This document shows, one piece after another, positions 55-42,542 of a stretch of 64,000 nt of DNA. The position numbers and the translations under genes were made by a program. The DNA is from Candidatus Acidiferrales bacterium (GTDB lineage: Bacteria > Bacteroidota > Ignavibacteria > Kryptoniales > JAKASW01): NCBI GenBank assembly GCA_035515795.1, contig DATJAY010000035.1:124001-188000 (forward strand). The letters run 5' to 3'. Every line of letters starts with the position of its first letter. The stretch's first letter is position 1. The notes beneath the pieces are model-generated. The model saw only the letters and a program-made list of their open reading frames with translations. It was not told the origin of the DNA and searched no databases.

Positions 55-951
55 GTGCGAGTCATCTCCATCGCGATCCCAAAGGGGGGGGAAGGAAAAA
101 CAACAACCGCAGTCAATCTCGCCGCGAGTCTTGCAGCGGCCGAGAAGAAGACTCTTCTGATTGATGCCGATACTCTCGGCGCGAGCGGAATTTCTCTCGG
201 CTACACAGCCGACCAGGTCAAAAGCGGACTGTACGACGTTTTCAACTATACTCACTCCCTTAACCGAGTGATTTATAAAACGGAATTGACCTATCTCGAT
301 TTCATTCCTTCGAACATTTCGACTGTCCAGATGGAAGAGCGCCTCCTCCGCCTGAGTGAGAACAGGACAATAATGCGGATTGCACTGCGAGATGTGGAAA
401 AAAAATACGATTACGTGATAATAGACTGCCCCCCGACTCTCCGGGGAATTACGACCAACGCTCTATGCGCGTCCAACTCAGTCATCGTTCCAATGCGCGC
501 CAGTCATTTCTCGCTCGATGCAGTGATGAGACTGATGCGCTACATGAAGTGGATCCGGGAAGTCGCAAACCCAAAAATTTATGTCGAAGGAATTATTCTC
601 ACGATGTACGAGCCGAACACCAAGATTTCTGAAATTACGGGCAGGGAACTTCGTTCGCGTTATTCTAAGTTCCTTTTCAAGATTGTTATTCCAAAAAACT
701 CAACCCTTGCGGAAGCCGCGTTCTACGGGAGGCCGGTGCTGTTGTACAACATAAACTCGAAAGGTGCTCAAGCCTATTTCGAGCTCGCAACCGAAATAAT
801 ATCCCGTGAGCATGCCTTCAACGAGATGATGGGTGAAGCAGGCGTCTCCTCCGCGTCGGACTCATCGCAGGCCGATACCAACGGTTCATTGCCACAGGAC
901 TCTCCAGCAAAGGGAGATAGTGGAGCCTCATTTGAAGGTTCGGTGAAGTGA
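55..951 (+). CDS. ParA/Soj/MinD-family ATPase, no ParB nearby
   Basis: A 298-residue P-loop ATPase of the ParA superfamily. The deviant Walker A is at residues 10-16 (KGGEGKT, with Glu where Val is usual, and the signature first Lys kept). Walker A' DAD is near residue 38, and Walker B-like IIDCPP near residue 122. The C-terminal 35 residues are Ser/Asp-rich and look disordered. The start is GTG with GGAG 11 bases upstream. Family members form ATP-bound dimers that position DNA or protein complexes. No parB, gidB or plasmid gene is visible, so this is an orphan ParA; its cargo is unknown. Its stop overlaps the GTG start of the next gene (GTGA), implying translational coupling. Confidence 0.85.
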   Translation: MRVISIAIPKGGEGKTTTAVNLAASLAAAEKKTLLIDADTLGASGISLGYTADQVKSGLYDVFNYTHSLNRVIYKTELTYLDFIPSNISTVQMEERLLRLSENRTIMRIALRDVEKKYDYVIIDCPPTLRGITTNALCASNSVIVPMRASHFSLDAVMRLMRYMKWIREVANPKIYVEGIILTMYEPNTKISEITGRELRSRYSKFLFKIVIPKNSTLAEAAFYGRPVLLYNINSKGAQAYFELATEIISREHAFNEMMGEAGVSSASDSSQADTNGSLPQDSPAKGDSGASFEGSVK

Positions 952-2651
952 GAGTTCTGCTGAATTTTTCTCTTGCACTTTTATTTCCTCTGATTCTTTG
1001 TTTTGGTAGAGTAAATACCGGCAACTCGAAGTCGTCTTCCAACGACACTTATCTTTTCCCGACTGATGCTTCGCACAGAATAAATTCAGGCTTTGCAGAC
1101 TACCGCTCTTCCCATTTTCACGGTGGGATGGACATCTCAACGAACGGGAAAATCGGCTACCAGGTTTTCGCCGCTAAATCGGGATATGTCTATCGAGTTT
1201 CCGTTTCACCGTTCGGTTATGGAAAGATGCTCATACTGAAACATGACGACTCGACATTCACTTTGTACGGACATCTCTCCGTATTTTCGGAAAAAATCGA
1301 GGAGATGGTTGGGGCGGCGCAGCGACAGGAGCATAAATACGGTGTGGAATTAAGGTTTAAGCCCGATGAAATCCGGGTCGATCGCGGTGAGGTTGTAGCA
1401 TATACGGGGGCGACCGGCGTCGGCGGTCCGCACCTTCATTTTGAGGTTCGCGACAAAAATTTTGCGTTCATCGATCCACTGGTCTTCGGTTCGCTCGACG
1501 TTCCTGACTACAGAACTCCGAGAATCTTCAACATCGCCGTCCGCGGGTTCCTATCCGGCGAAGCCAAGGTATGCAGCATGAAAAAGTCCGGCGATTCATA
1601 TTCTGCAAAACAGATTTTTCGTATGTCGGAGCCGTTCTATTTCGTGCTCCATGGTGCTGATTCATACGGGGGAAAATTCAAGCGACCGCCCAAATATATT
1701 CGGCTGAAGATAGACGGCAATGATTTTATCTCGTTGAACCTGACTCATTTCGATGCCGATGATTATCTGGACGTCGCGTCCCTTGTCGATCTCGGTCTAT
1801 CGAGGAGACTAAAAACATATTATATCCTTTGCGTGAATCGTGCTATTCCCTTTTCGGTTTTTACACCGGACACCCCGCTGAGCGGGCTAATAGGTGAGAA
1901 CTTCCCTAACGGGACTCATTCCTACGAAATTTCCATCGAAGATGAAGACGGAAACGGCGCCTCTGCTAGCGGGAAATTTGTTCTGAATCTTCCTCGATCT
2001 TCAAACAGCTCCTCGGATGCAACCGCAGGGCTGTCGATATCTCCATTTAAAGAAAAAGTCTTCAACCTATCTCCGTCGCTGACGCTGCGATTTCCCGAAA
2101 ACAGTTTTGCAAAGGAGATCGATATTGACGCGAGACTTCTTTCTCAGAATAGTCTTGAAATAGAATCCGAAAATGAGATGCTCAGAAAGAAAGTGGAGCT
2201 GACCTGGAGGGTGAACGATCCGACATTGAGACTCTACAGACGTTTGAGGAGACGCTGGAGTTACATCGAATGCAGCAATGATGGAAGCTTCTTGAGGGCT
2301 AAGATCGGCTACAGAACGGGAGTGTTCGCTCTATTACACGACGAGATGCCTCCAATTGTCGGAAAAATTAGGTTTTCAAATAAGAATCCATTTTACAGGT
2401 CGGCCGCACCGAAGGACTTTAAAAGAGATTTTGTATATTTTAAGGTATCGGACCGATTATCCGGAGTAAATACGGACAACATTTTTCTGAAAGTGGGAGA
2501 TGAAAAGCTCTTTTGCGAGTACGACTCTAAAAAACATTCCGCAGTTTGCCAGGTCGATGCGGATAAGTTGAGAGACGAGAGGAAAGTGGAAATCATCGTC
2601 AGCGATAATGCCGGGAACGAGAGAAGAGTTGTTTCGAGAATCAGATTTTAA
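948..2651 (+). CDS. Exported M23 (LytM-type) metallopeptidase with long C-terminal beta domain
   Basis: A 567-residue protein with an N-terminal hydrophobic signal segment (about residues 3-20). It carries an M23 peptidase domain at about 35-180. The zinc-site residues are present: H58 and D62 in a HxxxD motif, H109, and H162/H164 in PHLHFE. It is therefore predicted to be active as a cell-wall endopeptidase in the periplasm. Residues 190-567 look beta-rich with Ig-like stretches and I recognise no family there. The start is GTG overlapping the parA-like stop by 4 bases; the stop overlaps the K+ channel start by one base (TAATG). Sharing an operon with a ParA ATPase suggests a spatially controlled wall enzyme, which is inference. 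Confidence 0.85.
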   Translation: MRVLLNFSLALLFPLILCFGRVNTGNSKSSSNDTYLFPTDASHRINSGFADYRSSHFHGGMDISTNGKIGYQVFAAKSGYVYRVSVSPFGYGKMLILKHDDSTFTLYGHLSVFSEKIEEMVGAAQRQEHKYGVELRFKPDEIRVDRGEVVAYTGATGVGGPHLHFEVRDKNFAFIDPLVFGSLDVPDYRTPRIFNIAVRGFLSGEAKVCSMKKSGDSYSAKQIFRMSEPFYFVLHGADSYGGKFKRPPKYIRLKIDGNDFISLNLTHFDADDYLDVASLVDLGLSRRLKTYYILCVNRAIPFSVFTPDTPLSGLIGENFPNGTHSYEISIEDEDGNGASASGKFVLNLPRSSNSSSDATAGLSISPFKEKVFNLSPSLTLRFPENSFAKEIDIDARLLSQNSLEIESENEMLRKKVELTWRVNDPTLRLYRRLRRRWSYIECSNDGSFLRAKIGYRTGVFALLHDEMPPIVGKIRFSNKNPFYRSAAPKDFKRDFVYFKVSDRLSGVNTDNIFLKVGDEKLFCEYDSKKHSAVCQVDADKLRDERKVEIIVSDNAGNERRVVSRIRF

Positions 2652-3832
2652 TGAAACGTTTTTGGAAAACTTCCCGGATGAATCTCTTCGGGAAAAGGAG
2701 CGGAATAAATTTAAACTTGATCCCGCTCGTGTGGGTACTCACAAGTCTGGTGGTGGGCGGATCAATCTTAGTGTACCTGGCGGAAGGTCAACACGGGAAT
2801 ATCCACTCTTTATGGGATGCAGTATGGTGGACAGTCGTTACCATGACAACCGTCGGTTATGGAGATGTTGTCCCCACGACGGTTCTCGGACGGGTCGTCG
2901 GGATGTTCGTCATGCTGTCCGGAATCTCCGTCATCTCTTTATTGACCGCGACCATTTCGTCGATCTTCGTAGCACAAAAAATAAGAGAGAGCCAGGGTTT
3001 GCAACAGATTAAGCTGAAGGGACATACAATAATTTGCGGCTGGAATCAGAAGCTCGACGGCCTCCTGGAGACTCTGAACAGATTTTCCTCGGAGCGTCCA
3101 GAGACGGCGGTTGCCAGACAGAAGGAGGGCGTGGTCCTAGTAAACGAAATGCCACCCGCCAGGATGGAAGACACGCTGTCGAGCTATGAGAATCTAAATC
3201 TGAAGTATGTCAGCGGCGACTACACAAAGGAACCGACACTTGCGCGCGCAAATTTGAAAGACGCGCTGTCTGTTATAATCTTACCAGATATGTCGCTGAC
3301 ATCTGAGCCTCGTGACGACAAAACGCTTCCTGCTGCACTCGCGATAAAATCTATGAAGCGTGATATAAAGGTCTACGCCCACGTAATCGACAAGGAAAAT
3401 CTCTCGCACTTGAAAAGGGCAGATGTCGACGACGTCATTATCAGTGACGAACACGTCGGCTATCTGCTTGCATCGGATATTTCTTCGCCGGGAATCGCAC
3501 AGGCAGTCCAGACGCTCTTGGATCCAGAGAAGGGTGTATCCTTCAAAAGAGTAAAGATGCCATCGGACTTCGTCGGAAAAAAATTCCAAGAGATTCATGA
3601 ATACTTCAAAAGCCAGCGAAATAGCATCGTGATTGGATTTGTATCACAGGATGAATCCGTGAAGATAACGGACATTCTTTCTTCCGATTACACGGCAATA
3701 GATTCATTTATAGAACGAAAATTTAAAGCAGCGGGTCTCGATTTTCGGGAAAAGGGCGGACTCCGTCTGAATCTGAATCCACCTCTCGATTATATTGCTC
3801 AAGAAAAAGAAGATGTGATTATAATAGGATGA
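2651..3832 (+). CDS. Two-TM potassium channel with RCK/TrkA-N-type domain
   Basis: A 393-residue inner-membrane ion channel. TM1 is about residues 22-43, the pore helix 52-66, the selectivity filter TVGYGD 67-72, and TM2 about 80-107. The cytoplasmic part from about 123 resembles a TrkA-N/RCK NAD-binding fold, although the usual glycine-rich motif is altered (IICGWNQK). A C-terminal TrkA-C-like part follows. Such channels conduct K+ and are gated by ligands on the RCK ring. The start overlaps the M23 stop by one base. The stop overlaps the next start by 4 bases (ATGA), so the channel is probably made together with the adjacent cyclic-nucleotide-binding protein. Confidence 0.9.
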   Translation: MKRFWKTSRMNLFGKRSGINLNLIPLVWVLTSLVVGGSILVYLAEGQHGNIHSLWDAVWWTVVTMTTVGYGDVVPTTVLGRVVGMFVMLSGISVISLLTATISSIFVAQKIRESQGLQQIKLKGHTIICGWNQKLDGLLETLNRFSSERPETAVARQKEGVVLVNEMPPARMEDTLSSYENLNLKYVSGDYTKEPTLARANLKDALSVIILPDMSLTSEPRDDKTLPAALAIKSMKRDIKVYAHVIDKENLSHLKRADVDDVIISDEHVGYLLASDISSPGIAQAVQTLLDPEKGVSFKRVKMPSDFVGKKFQEIHEYFKSQRNSIVIGFVSQDESVKITDILSSDYTAIDSFIERKFKAAGLDFREKGGLRLNLNPPLDYIAQEKEDVIIIG

Positions 3833-4344
3833 AACCCTCGGCCCTCGATATCGATCTCAGCCGCACGGCAATTTTCGCGGGAATCCCGGAAGAAAAAATT
3901 GCGAAGCTTGCGGCTCTCGTTAAGGTGCAAAATTTTCCGGCAGATCAACTGATCATGAAAGAAGGCGAAAGCGGAAGCTGCCTTTGTATCCTGTTGGGCG
4001 GCGAAGTTGAAGTTAGCAAATCGTTGGTCTTTCGTTCAGGCGCCGCGTCACTTGATCCTTTAGACAAATCACTGATGCGACTTACATCGAAGAATTTCCC
4101 TTTTTTCGGGGAGATGTCTCTCTTTGAGAAAAACAGTGCGCGCAACGCGACGGTGCGCACAATCTCACCGTGCAGGTTTGCCATTATCGAACTGGCAGAT
4201 CTAGTGAGACTTTCAGAAACGGATTATGAGATTGGATATAGGATTTTCTTTAATATTGCATGGGCGTTGAGCGACAGGCTCAACAAAAGCAACAACGACT
4301 TATTGAAGGTAACGACAGCACTCGGTATCGCGTTAGAGAGATGA
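3829..4344 (+). CDS. Single-domain cyclic-nucleotide-binding protein
   Basis: A 171-residue soluble protein with one cNMP-binding domain spanning about residues 12-140. The phosphate-binding cassette is visible as FFGEMSLF followed by RNATV, with the Glu and Arg used to bind the cyclic phosphate kept. There is no helix-turn-helix, so it is not a Crp-type transcription factor. The C-terminal 30 residues are helical. It overlaps the K+ channel gene by ATGA. Cyclic-nucleotide-gated channels normally carry this domain in the same chain, so here it may act as a detached regulatory subunit. That role is inference from gene order. Confidence 0.8.
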   Translation: MKPSALDIDLSRTAIFAGIPEEKIAKLAALVKVQNFPADQLIMKEGESGSCLCILLGGEVEVSKSLVFRSGAASLDPLDKSLMRLTSKNFPFFGEMSLFEKNSARNATVRTISPCRFAIIELADLVRLSETDYEIGYRIFFNIAWALSDRLNKSNNDLLKVTTALGIALER

Positions 4345-4409: not shown

Positions 4410-7064
4410 ATGGATCGAGAAATACCTAAAACATATTCGCCGTCCGAAATTGAAGACAGGTGGTACAAGAGTTGGCTCGATAAGAAATTATTCGAAGCGC
4501 ATGTAAACAAACAGAAGAAGCCTTATACCGTCGTTATTCCTCCGCCAAACATTACCGGAATTTTGACGATGGGGCATGTCCTGAATAATTCCATCCAGGA
4601 TGTTTTCGTCAGATGGAAGAGGATGAAAGGTTTCGAGGCGTGCTGGGTTCCGGGTACCGACCACGCCGGAATCGCCACACAGAACGTCGTGGAGAAAAGC
4701 CTGGCAAAAGAAGGAAAAGACAGACATTCGCTCGGCAGGGAAAAATTTATTGACCTTGTATGGAAATGGCGTGAGCAGTATGGCGGTAAAATAATCAAGC
4801 AGCTGAAAAAGCTTGGCGTCTCGTGCGATTGGTCTCGCGAGCGGTTTACGATGGATGATGGATTGTCGCAGGCAGTAGGGGAAGTCTTCGTAAGGCTGTA
4901 CCAGAAGGGTTTAATTTACCGCGGGAAATATATTGTCAACTGGTGTCCGAAAGACCACACGGCGATAAGCGACGACGAAGTTGAGTATCAGGAGAAAAAC
5001 GGCAAACTCTATTACATAAAGTATCCTTTTGAAGACGGTTCCGGTCATCTCACGGTGGCAACCACGAGACCCGAGACGATGCTCGGCGATGTTGCGGTCG
5101 CCGTGAATCCATCCGATGAACGTTTCAAGAATCTCATCGGGAAAAAACTGGTGCTTCCGCTGGTCGGAAGAAAAATGAAAATAATTGCCGATGATTATGT
5201 CGACAAGGAATTCGGAACCGGTGCGGTGAAAATTACTCCTGCTCACGATCCCAATGATTTCATGGTAGCCGGCCGACACGGTCTGGAAAAAATTGCGGTT
5301 CTCGATATTTCGGGAAAGGTAAACGAGAATGCGCCGGAGAAATACCGCGGTCTCGACAGGTTTAAGGCGCGGAAGCTCATCATCGAAGATTTAGAAGCTT
5401 TACAATTGGTAGATAAGATCACCGACTACAAATTGAGTGTCGGCGAATGCTATCGCTGCCACACGGTCATCGAGCCGTATCTTTCGGATCAGTGGTTCGT
5501 TAAGATGAAACCGCTTGCCGAGCCCGCGCTGAAAGCGGTGCGCGACGGGAAAATTCATTTCTATCCTGAACGTTGGGTAAAAACTTATGAGAACTGGCTG
5601 GAAAATATCCGTGACTGGTGCATCAGCCGGCAGCTGTGGTGGGGCCACAGGATTCCGGTGTGGTACTGCAGCAAATGCGGCGAGCAGGTCGTGAGCACGA
5701 ATGCACCTGCATCTCCATGTTCCAGGTGCGGCGGGGAGTCTTATCATCAGGACGAAGACGTCCTGGACACGTGGTTTTCTTCCTGGCTGTGGCCGTTTTC
5801 TTTGTTTGGCTGGCCTGAAGAAACACCCGACTTAAAATATTTCTACCCGACAGATACGCTTGTCACCGCGCCCGACATAATTTTCTTCTGGGTTGCAAGG
5901 ATGATCATAGCGGGAATCGAGTTTCGTGGAGACGTGCCGTTCAGGGATGTTTACTTCACGAGCGTCATCCGCGATATGCAGGGAAGAAAAATGTCCAAGT
6001 CGCTCGGCAATTCTCCTGATCCGCTCGATGTCATCAGAGATTACGGTGCCGACGCGCTGAGGTTCACGATACTTTACCTTGCCCCGCTAGGGCAGGATGT
6101 CTTGTTTGAAGGCAGCAAATGCGAGATGGGCAGAAATTTTGCGAACAAGATCTGGAACGCCGGTCGGTTCTTAATGATGAATCAGGATAAGATTGAAGTG
6201 TCGGCGGCGCCGGACAATTCGATTTTCGATTTCGCCGATAAGTGGATCGTAAGCAGGCTGCATCGGACGATACGGGATTTGAACATATCCCTGGATCATT
6301 TCCGCATCAACGACGCAGCGAAAATCATTTATGATTTCGTCTGGCATGATTACTGCGATTGGTACGTCGAGATGGTCAAGGAGAGACTCAATCAAGTATC
6401 TAATGAGATGACCCGCGCGATAATTCTTGCGAATGCAATCTCGATTTTTGAATCTGCCATCAAGTTGCTTCATCCCTTCATGCCCTTTATTACCGAGGAG
6501 CTTTACGGACTCATTAAAGAAGGACATGGCAGCGAAAGCATCACCGTTGCTGAATTCCCTGAGGCAGAAATTCGGTTTGTCAATGAGAAAATTGAAGCGG
6601 AAATGGAGCTGATCCAGGAAGTTATTAGTTCAATCAGGGCAATGAGGAAGGAGGCGAGTGTCCCGCCGAATGTTCTTGTCGATATCGTCGTGAAACCGAA
6701 AGATGAGAATATACTTAAGACATTGTCCTCGAACGAATCGCATATCAGATGTCTTGCAAAGGCCGAGTCGTTCAGCATCGGATTTGACCTGCGCAAGCCC
6801 GAGACATCGAAAAGTGCGGTCATTCGAGGAACTGAAATTTTCATTTCATTGGAGGGTTTGGTAAATGTCGATGCCGAGCGGAGCAGGCTTGAGAAAGAAA
6901 TTGACCGGGTGAAAGGAGTAATTGCCGGAATCGAGGCAAAATTGAGCAACGAGCAGTTCATAAAGCGCGCTCCCGCTCAGGTTATTGAAAAAGAGAAATT
7001 GAAAATCGAATCGATGAAAGTAACGCTTGCCAAGCTGGAGGAGAATGTATCTGCAATCCGGTAA
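4410..7064 (+). CDS. valS: Valyl-tRNA synthetase
   Basis: An 884-residue class I aminoacyl-tRNA synthetase that charges tRNA-Val. The HIGH motif appears as GHVLN (55-59) and KMSKS at 527-531. The editing (CP1) domain lies between, with TTRPET. A four-cysteine zinc ribbon (YCSKCG ... CSRCGG) sits near residues 418-445. The C-terminal coiled-coil arm typical of ValRS occupies about residues 815-884. Length and domain order are normal for bacterial ValRS. The 65-base gap before it holds only a weak SD-like stretch and no T-box-like leader that I can see. Confidence 0.97.
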   Translation: MDREIPKTYSPSEIEDRWYKSWLDKKLFEAHVNKQKKPYTVVIPPPNITGILTMGHVLNNSIQDVFVRWKRMKGFEACWVPGTDHAGIATQNVVEKSLAKEGKDRHSLGREKFIDLVWKWREQYGGKIIKQLKKLGVSCDWSRERFTMDDGLSQAVGEVFVRLYQKGLIYRGKYIVNWCPKDHTAISDDEVEYQEKNGKLYYIKYPFEDGSGHLTVATTRPETMLGDVAVAVNPSDERFKNLIGKKLVLPLVGRKMKIIADDYVDKEFGTGAVKITPAHDPNDFMVAGRHGLEKIAVLDISGKVNENAPEKYRGLDRFKARKLIIEDLEALQLVDKITDYKLSVGECYRCHTVIEPYLSDQWFVKMKPLAEPALKAVRDGKIHFYPERWVKTYENWLENIRDWCISRQLWWGHRIPVWYCSKCGEQVVSTNAPASPCSRCGGESYHQDEDVLDTWFSSWLWPFSLFGWPEETPDLKYFYPTDTLVTAPDIIFFWVARMIIAGIEFRGDVPFRDVYFTSVIRDMQGRKMSKSLGNSPDPLDVIRDYGADALRFTILYLAPLGQDVLFEGSKCEMGRNFANKIWNAGRFLMMNQDKIEVSAAPDNSIFDFADKWIVSRLHRTIRDLNISLDHFRINDAAKIIYDFVWHDYCDWYVEMVKERLNQVSNEMTRAIILANAISIFESAIKLLHPFMPFITEELYGLIKEGHGSESITVAEFPEAEIRFVNEKIEAEMELIQEVISSIRAMRKEASVPPNVLVDIVVKPKDENILKTLSSNESHIRCLAKAESFSIGFDLRKPETSKSAVIRGTEIFISLEGLVNVDAERSRLEKEIDRVKGVIAGIEAKLSNEQFIKRAPAQVIEKEKLKIESMKVTLAKLEENVSAIR

Positions 7065-41837: not shown

Positions 41838-42542
41838 TCACCAGTCTTTGTCCGTCTTGACCGGCTGTCCTTTCATTTTCCTTAGCTGTTTCTGGAGATT
41901 TTTCTCGTCATTGTTTAATGCATTGAAAATCGACTCTGCCTGATCTTTCGAGATCTTTGGCGGTGGCTGCTGCGCCTGCTGATTTTGTTGTTGATTTTTC
42001 CTGTCGTTCTTGTTCTGTTGATCCTGATTGTTCTTGTTCTGTTCTTTGTTCTGATCGTTTTTATTCTGATCCTGGTTATTCTTGTTGTTTTTGTTCTGTT
42101 GGTTTTGATTTTTCAGTAAATCGAGTGCATAGGAAAGATTGTATTTAGTAGGTTCATCGTTCGGATTCAGCTTTAGTGATTCAATGTAGGCACCGACGCT
42201 CTCCTTGATCTTTTGATCTTTCAGGAGCGCATTGCCCATATTGTGGTAGACTCTTGCCTTTAAATCGTTCGTGCCCGCTTTTGACAGCGCAGCGCCGTAT
42301 GATTTCATCGCCTCGTCGTATTTTCCTTCCTTGTAGTATGAATCACCGAGGTCGAAGTTCGCCTGAAAATTCTCCGGAGATTTTTCCAAACCCTTTTTAA
42401 ACTCAACTTCGGAATCGATGTATTTGCCGCCATGATACAGATCGACTCCCTTGTTCACTGAAGACCGCGTGCTCTGGGCAAACAAGTCTCCGTAAATAAG
42501 CATGATTGCCAGAACCAGAAAATATTTCATCGATTCATTCAC
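41838..42542 (-). CDS. batC: BatC-like TPR protein with Asn/Gln-rich segment
   Basis: A 234-residue exported or membrane-anchored protein with a signal segment at about 6-22. TPR repeats (about 28-142) contain FDLGDSYYKEGKYDEAMKSY and NMGNALLKDQKIKES. Residues 145-192 are almost entirely Asn, Gln, Lys and Asp (KNNQDQNKND-like units), and the C-terminus is charged. BatC family TPR proteins are scaffold candidates in the aerotolerance machinery. The start is GTG at 42542 with GGAG ten bases upstream; an ATG at 42530 is possible. The gene is seven bases after batB. Confidence 0.85.
   Translation of the reverse strand: MNESMKYFLVLAIMLIYGDLFAQSTRSSVNKGVDLYHGGKYIDSEVEFKKGLEKSPENFQANFDLGDSYYKEGKYDEAMKSYGAALSKAGTNDLKARVYHNMGNALLKDQKIKESVGAYIESLKLNPNDEPTKYNLSYALDLLKNQNQQNKNNKNNQDQNKNDQNKEQNKNNQDQQNKNDRKNQQQNQQAQQPPPKISKDQAESIFNALNNDEKNLQKQLRKMKGQPVKTDKDW

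Follow-up and report, generated by a model that had tools for sequence, protein, structure and literature searches.

A K+ channel gene and a stand-alone cNBD gene form a strictly linked pair in several lineages of one phylum

K+ channels gated through RCK domains and those gated by cyclic nucleotides are usually treated as distinct designs. MlotiK1 and SthK represent the second design: their cNBD lies within the channel polypeptide, which has six TM helices and no RCK. The first is represented by MthK, which has a two-TM, single-RCK architecture and a Ca2+ site. In the K+ uptake systems KtrAB and TrkAH, the cytosolic RCK ring is detached and binds ATP or ADP (e.g. PMC11078986, PMC4714889). In the open-access literature searched, we found no description of a channel whose cNBD is a split or stand-alone subunit, nor of a bacterial RCK combined with a cNBD.

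The locus that we analyzed resembles each of these systems in part. As in MthK, its channel (Kch) combines the same pore and filter with a Rossmann-type RCK-N and a putative RCK-C in a two-TM, single-RCK design. With MlotiK1 and SthK it shares a K+ pore and a cNBD that carries the canonical cassette, Glu and Arg both being present, but here the cNBD is a separate protein encoded beside a two-TM RCK channel. As in KtrAB and TrkAH, a separate gene would supply the K+ pathway with a soluble, nucleotide-binding regulator; here, however, it is the cNBD that is detached, and the RCK remains part of the channel.

The window, by which we mean the whole 64,000-nt stretch of DNA analyzed, opens with four ORFs on the + strand: a ParA (55-951; Pfam AAA_31/ParA-like), an M23 peptidase (948-2651; Peptidase_M23), Kch (2651-3832; Ion_trans_2, Slo-like_RCK and TrkA_N) and the cNBD protein (3829-4344; cNMP_binding). 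A preliminary description had reported four genes with overlaps of 4, 1 and 4 bases, and this is what we find (948-951 for ParA/M23, 2651 for M23/Kch and 3829-3832 for Kch/cNBD). The operon begins at least one gene earlier, with an FAA-hydrolase (FAH) gene that lies outside the window (L002 15399-16052) and ends 2 bases before ParA. On the other side, valS (4410-7064, +) starts 65 bases downstream of the cNBD gene and is the conserved downstream anchor of the locus. Both of these genes, and the RCK domain of the channel, were overlooked in the preliminary description. Scans for promoters and terminators near the operon gave signal no better than chance, and an Rfam scan of the window returned zero family matches. 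An imperfect tandem repeat with periods of 15-45 is found at 41999-42110 of the window.

Kch had been described as a two-TM K+ channel with the TVGYGD filter. The pore and filter are present (TM1 at about residues 23-45, pore helix 54-66, filter 67-72, TM2 78-114), but the protein is more than a pore: TM2 is followed by an RCK/TrkA_N domain at residues 122-264 (Pfam Slo-like_RCK, E 1.4e-10; TrkA_N, E 7.2e-9). We assign RCK-N to about residues 122-264 and, tentatively, RCK-C to about 298-393; Pfam TrkA_C had zero match in Kch. The AF2 model of Kch has a mean pLDDT of 80, and the fold search returned MthK as the top match and Slo1 next, with most of the length of Kch aligned. The fold alignment to MthK spans ~373 columns at an overall TM-score of 0.51, the RCK-C part of the model being weaker. 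In sequence comparison, too, MthK matched best across the pore and the RCK, the alignment covering Kch residues 37-305.

Compared to MthK, the Ca2+ site is largely gone. The MthK ligands D184, E210 and E212 align with Kch D213, H244 and I246, and two of the three are non-acidic throughout the Kch family, with an acidic residue at the H244 and I246 positions in 0/35 sequences. MthK also makes free RCK subunits from an internal start at M107. Kch has Q115 at that position, and Met is absent there from 35/35 Kch sequences; four relatives in the genus carry a Met three residues before it, in a check that covered ATG starts. The Kch family further differs from MthK in having an obligate neighboring cNBD gene and an RCK-C helix of its own. 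This helix (349-360 in the model) belongs to a segment of about residues 339-362 (3665..3736, +; ...LSSDYTAIDSFIERKFKAAG) in which D351, F353, I354, K357 and G362 are invariant within the 35-sequence set of the pair family. In the two non-family channels that score just under the family gap, the alignment to Kch stops at residue 265. One channel gene, in genome G670 (L208 5927-7090), has a disrupted filter that reads GDYAG; the genome is of low quality and 71% complete, and the disruption is probably a sequencing or assembly frameshift.

The cNBD protein has 171 aa, arranged as a CRP-like beta-roll and a long C helix (133-170). As the preliminary description held, it has no HTH: both Pfam and the AF2 model (pLDDT 73) indicate that the polypeptide ends at the C helix, and it contains no DNA-binding or other output domain. 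The C-terminal HTH of CRP/FNR transcription factors is what sets those proteins apart from it. In a fold search with the model, cAMP-receptor proteins were the top matches and the MlotiK1 cNBD was also among the matches. The stand-alone cNBD proteins in PDB entries 3mdp and 3gyd have a similar single-cNBD fold; 3mdp is clearly shorter (a 142-residue chain, 132 modelled), and, unlike the window protein, neither has a channel partner recorded in the comparison results.

By alignment, the phosphate-binding cassette of the cNBD protein is FFGEMSLFEKNSARNATV (residues 94-109, including E95 and R105; 4108..4155, +). Its G94, E95, R105 and A107 are invariant in 35/35 cNBD sequences; the set covers five families, and its members are 35-70% identical to the window protein. 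The C-terminal tail (about residues 150-171, RLNKSNNDLLKVTTALGIALER; 4276..4341, +) is conserved in the cNBD family of the pair as well, with D157, K160, T163 and A164 invariant across the 35 sequences. Among the listed sub-threshold cNBD matches, the ends all lie at or before residue 165 and mostly by 147-161, so that the tail is hardly covered. The cNBD tail and Kch residues 339-362 are the portions of the two proteins least shared with non-family proteins, and this pattern of sequence conservation makes both of them candidate docking surfaces.

We followed the two genes through two genome samples, one of 395 genomes from the phylum and one of 391 from the class. These are draft genomes, many of them probably metagenome bins, where an apparent absence can be an assembly gap. 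In the phylum sample, the Kch family and the cNBD family occur in the identical 14/395 genomes, and each is set off by a wide score gap (at least 376 bits vs 112 for the next match for Kch, at least 170 vs 77 for the cNBD protein). The naive odds of such a 14-genome coincidence are about 5e-26, a figure inflated by shared ancestry. In the class sample, 31 genomes have Kch; the cNBD gene is adjacent in 30 of them and a contig end cuts the remaining one. Both genes are also present in one genome from outside the class (G342), where each lies close to the end of a contig. In every one of the 35 assembled pairs the genes are neighbors on the same strand, with spacings of -29 to +36 bases and the 4-base ATGA overlap in 19. 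The two remain separate ORFs in every pair, and no natural fusion was seen among the fetched loci. A contig-database search with the channel returned one record matching a relative, one weak match and nothing else.

The pair is conserved well beyond close relatives, and its surroundings vary. It adjoins or is near valS in nearly all cases in families f1, f2 and f17. In f27 it follows macro- and NUDIX-domain genes (L193, L194, L195, L192), and a gene for a Kup K+ transporter lies a few kilobases away in 3/4 genomes; in f30 it precedes a gene that we named by eye as dihydroorotase-like. Because the pair has been kept together in differing surroundings, its linkage does not stem from one frozen operon. 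Kch is the sole invariant neighbor of the cNBD gene across these five families. The surroundings in f27 could be part of a wider K+/nucleotide cluster.

Losses, too, involve both genes. Genome G016 holds only fragments of each, between an ABC-permease-like gene and ValS (L133 about 5830-6220), and these remnants in place indicate that both decayed together. Four genomes of the same genus as the window (G002, G005, G006 and G011) lack ParA, Kch and the cNBD gene and have FAH-M23-ValS intact. In flanking-gene trees, G002 and G006 form one clade and G005 and G011 a separate one, a placement that uses genes from the same neighborhood. Taken with the decay in G016, these separate pair-less clades mean that joint loss seems to have occurred at least three times; loss of Kch alone or of the cNBD gene alone was not seen in the genomes compared. 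The mirror-tree analysis added no extra signal, because all of the genes follow vertical descent: the partial correlation of Kch and cNBD given ValS was 0.20 (18 genomes), and in 12 genomes the Kch-cNBD value (0.54) equalled that of the Kch-FAH control (0.54).

There is good support for a single function served by Kch and the cNBD protein together, and since their genes are inherited and lost jointly they probably make up one channel under cyclic-nucleotide control. Our main reading, to which we give a probability of roughly 0.6, is that they are two subunits of one cyclic-nucleotide-controlled RCK K+ channel system. We infer that the two proteins are in physical contact, that cAMP or cGMP is the ligand, and that its binding gates the channel. 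The cNBD protein, which like CRP probably dimerizes by way of the long C helix, would dock as a dimer on the cytoplasmic RCK ring of Kch, where binding of cAMP or cGMP would alter pore opening. Such control could replace or supplement the MthK-type Ca2+ control that is largely missing in the Kch family, and K+ flux would then let the cyclic nucleotide set turgor or membrane potential. ParA and M23 would have jobs apart from the channel.

It is tempting to go further and see here an undescribed class of channel, in which a soluble cNBD dimer completes or caps an RCK ring without most of the Ca2+ site and without an MthK-like internal start, and a cyclic mononucleotide thereby opens or closes the channel in trans; we hold this tentatively, at somewhat less than even odds. 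If true, an RCK channel with a detached cNBD acting in trans would unite the two designs. Stand-alone cNBD proteins, which are common and mostly unassigned, would gain a testable role, and gating studies would gain a soluble, titratable sensor subunit.

Co-occurrence and co-loss indicate shared function, not contact, and the two proteins could be a functional pair without contact gating: the cNBD protein may sense the nucleotide and, within one shared K+-homeostasis response, act on a different partner or affect how the channel is assembled or how stable it is. The lack of a fusion among the fetched loci and the Kup gene near the pair in f27 are consistent with this. However, the cNBD protein has no second domain, and Kch is its only constant neighbor in five families; we regard this alternative as unlikely, though worth keeping in mind. 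It appears more doubtful that the cNBD protein is a structural beta-subunit that binds no nucleotide, with some other ligand gating at the RCK. There is precedent for ligand-free cNBD folds in the KCNH channels of eukaryotes, whose cNBD-homology domains bind no cyclic nucleotide. Yet E95 and R105, which occupy the positions where CRP-type sites contact the ribose and the phosphate, do not vary across the 35 sequences.

We see very little chance that the pair persists merely through sitting in a conserved operon. Its position by or near valS in nearly all f1, f2 and f17 cases would fit such hitch-hiking, but the surroundings in f27 and f30 are quite different and the deletions take both genes while leaving the operon. 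The full model of the preliminary description, in which M23 wall cleavage positioned by ParA is tied to a K+ channel switch, is hardly credible: the window and about eight same-genus relatives do have all four genes side by side, and two lineages of the genus lack ParA as well as the pair, but every element is found elsewhere without the others, and M23 appears, from a signal read by eye, to be exported and so to occupy a different compartment from ParA, the RCK and the cNBD. What stands of that model is the split cyclic-nucleotide-gated channel, for which co-occurrence, adjacency, joint decay and the invariant cassette all argue; the tie to placed wall cleavage does not, the gene order being limited to the genus.

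This limited distribution is part of a wider pattern, in which the locus reads FAH-(ParA)-(M23)-(Kch-cNBD)-ValS and the parts in brackets are gained or lost separately among relatives. FAH-M23-ValS or FAH-M23 recurs across the class; FAH-M23-ValS is the class-wide backbone, and ParA and the Kch-cNBD pair are separate insertions. Four families have ParA without the pair. In f4 and f13 its neighbors are FAH on one side and M23 or ValS on the other, in f14 it is flanked by FAH and ValS, and in f7 it stands directly upstream of ValS. Conversely, no ParA accompanies the pair in f2, f17, f27 and f30, and no M23 in f2, f27, f30 and some f17 genomes, while M23 without ParA or the pair is the state of most class members examined. 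The four-gene order was seen in G000 and about eight relatives, all in the genus, and nowhere else; this includes caveats for G001, whose locus is on two contigs, and G008, where a contig end cuts the locus before ParA. We rejected a functional unit of all four genes, given that the parts occur independently in the gene-order data. The conserved unit is the Kch-cNBD gene pair, which corrects the four-gene picture.

ParA and M23 are operon neighbors only, separate from the channel pair. The ParA is an orphan, as had been proposed, and differs from ParABS partition systems in having no ParB alongside; the ParA-ParB pair of this genome is on another contig (L209 5672-7536). Its Walker A motif is KGGEGKTTT, with E where V is usual. 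In relatives, this second ParA is found either at the FAH-ValS locus or apart from it. The M23 active site is intact, in agreement with the preliminary description, the translation containing both zinc motifs, HxxxD (HGGMD) and HxH (HLH), and an N-terminal export signal can be recognized by eye. M23 is part of the class-wide backbone, without specificity to the channel.

Pair-bearing genomes are predicted to have a source of cAMP or cGMP. Of those tested, 29/30 encode class III cyclases (PF00211), the exception being 78% complete, and so do 9/11 pair-less genomes; because these cyclases are common in pair-less relatives too, their presence hardly discriminates. Within the genus, a 450-aa class III cyclase occurs in 8/9 pair-bearing and 0/4 pair-less genomes, a link that counts for little, given that these genomes are relatives of one another. 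On the same contig as the operon, about 130 kb downstream, lies a class III nucleotidyl cyclase gene (L210 6164-7369); cyclases similar to it are found in none of the four pair-less members of the genus and in most of the pair-bearing ones.
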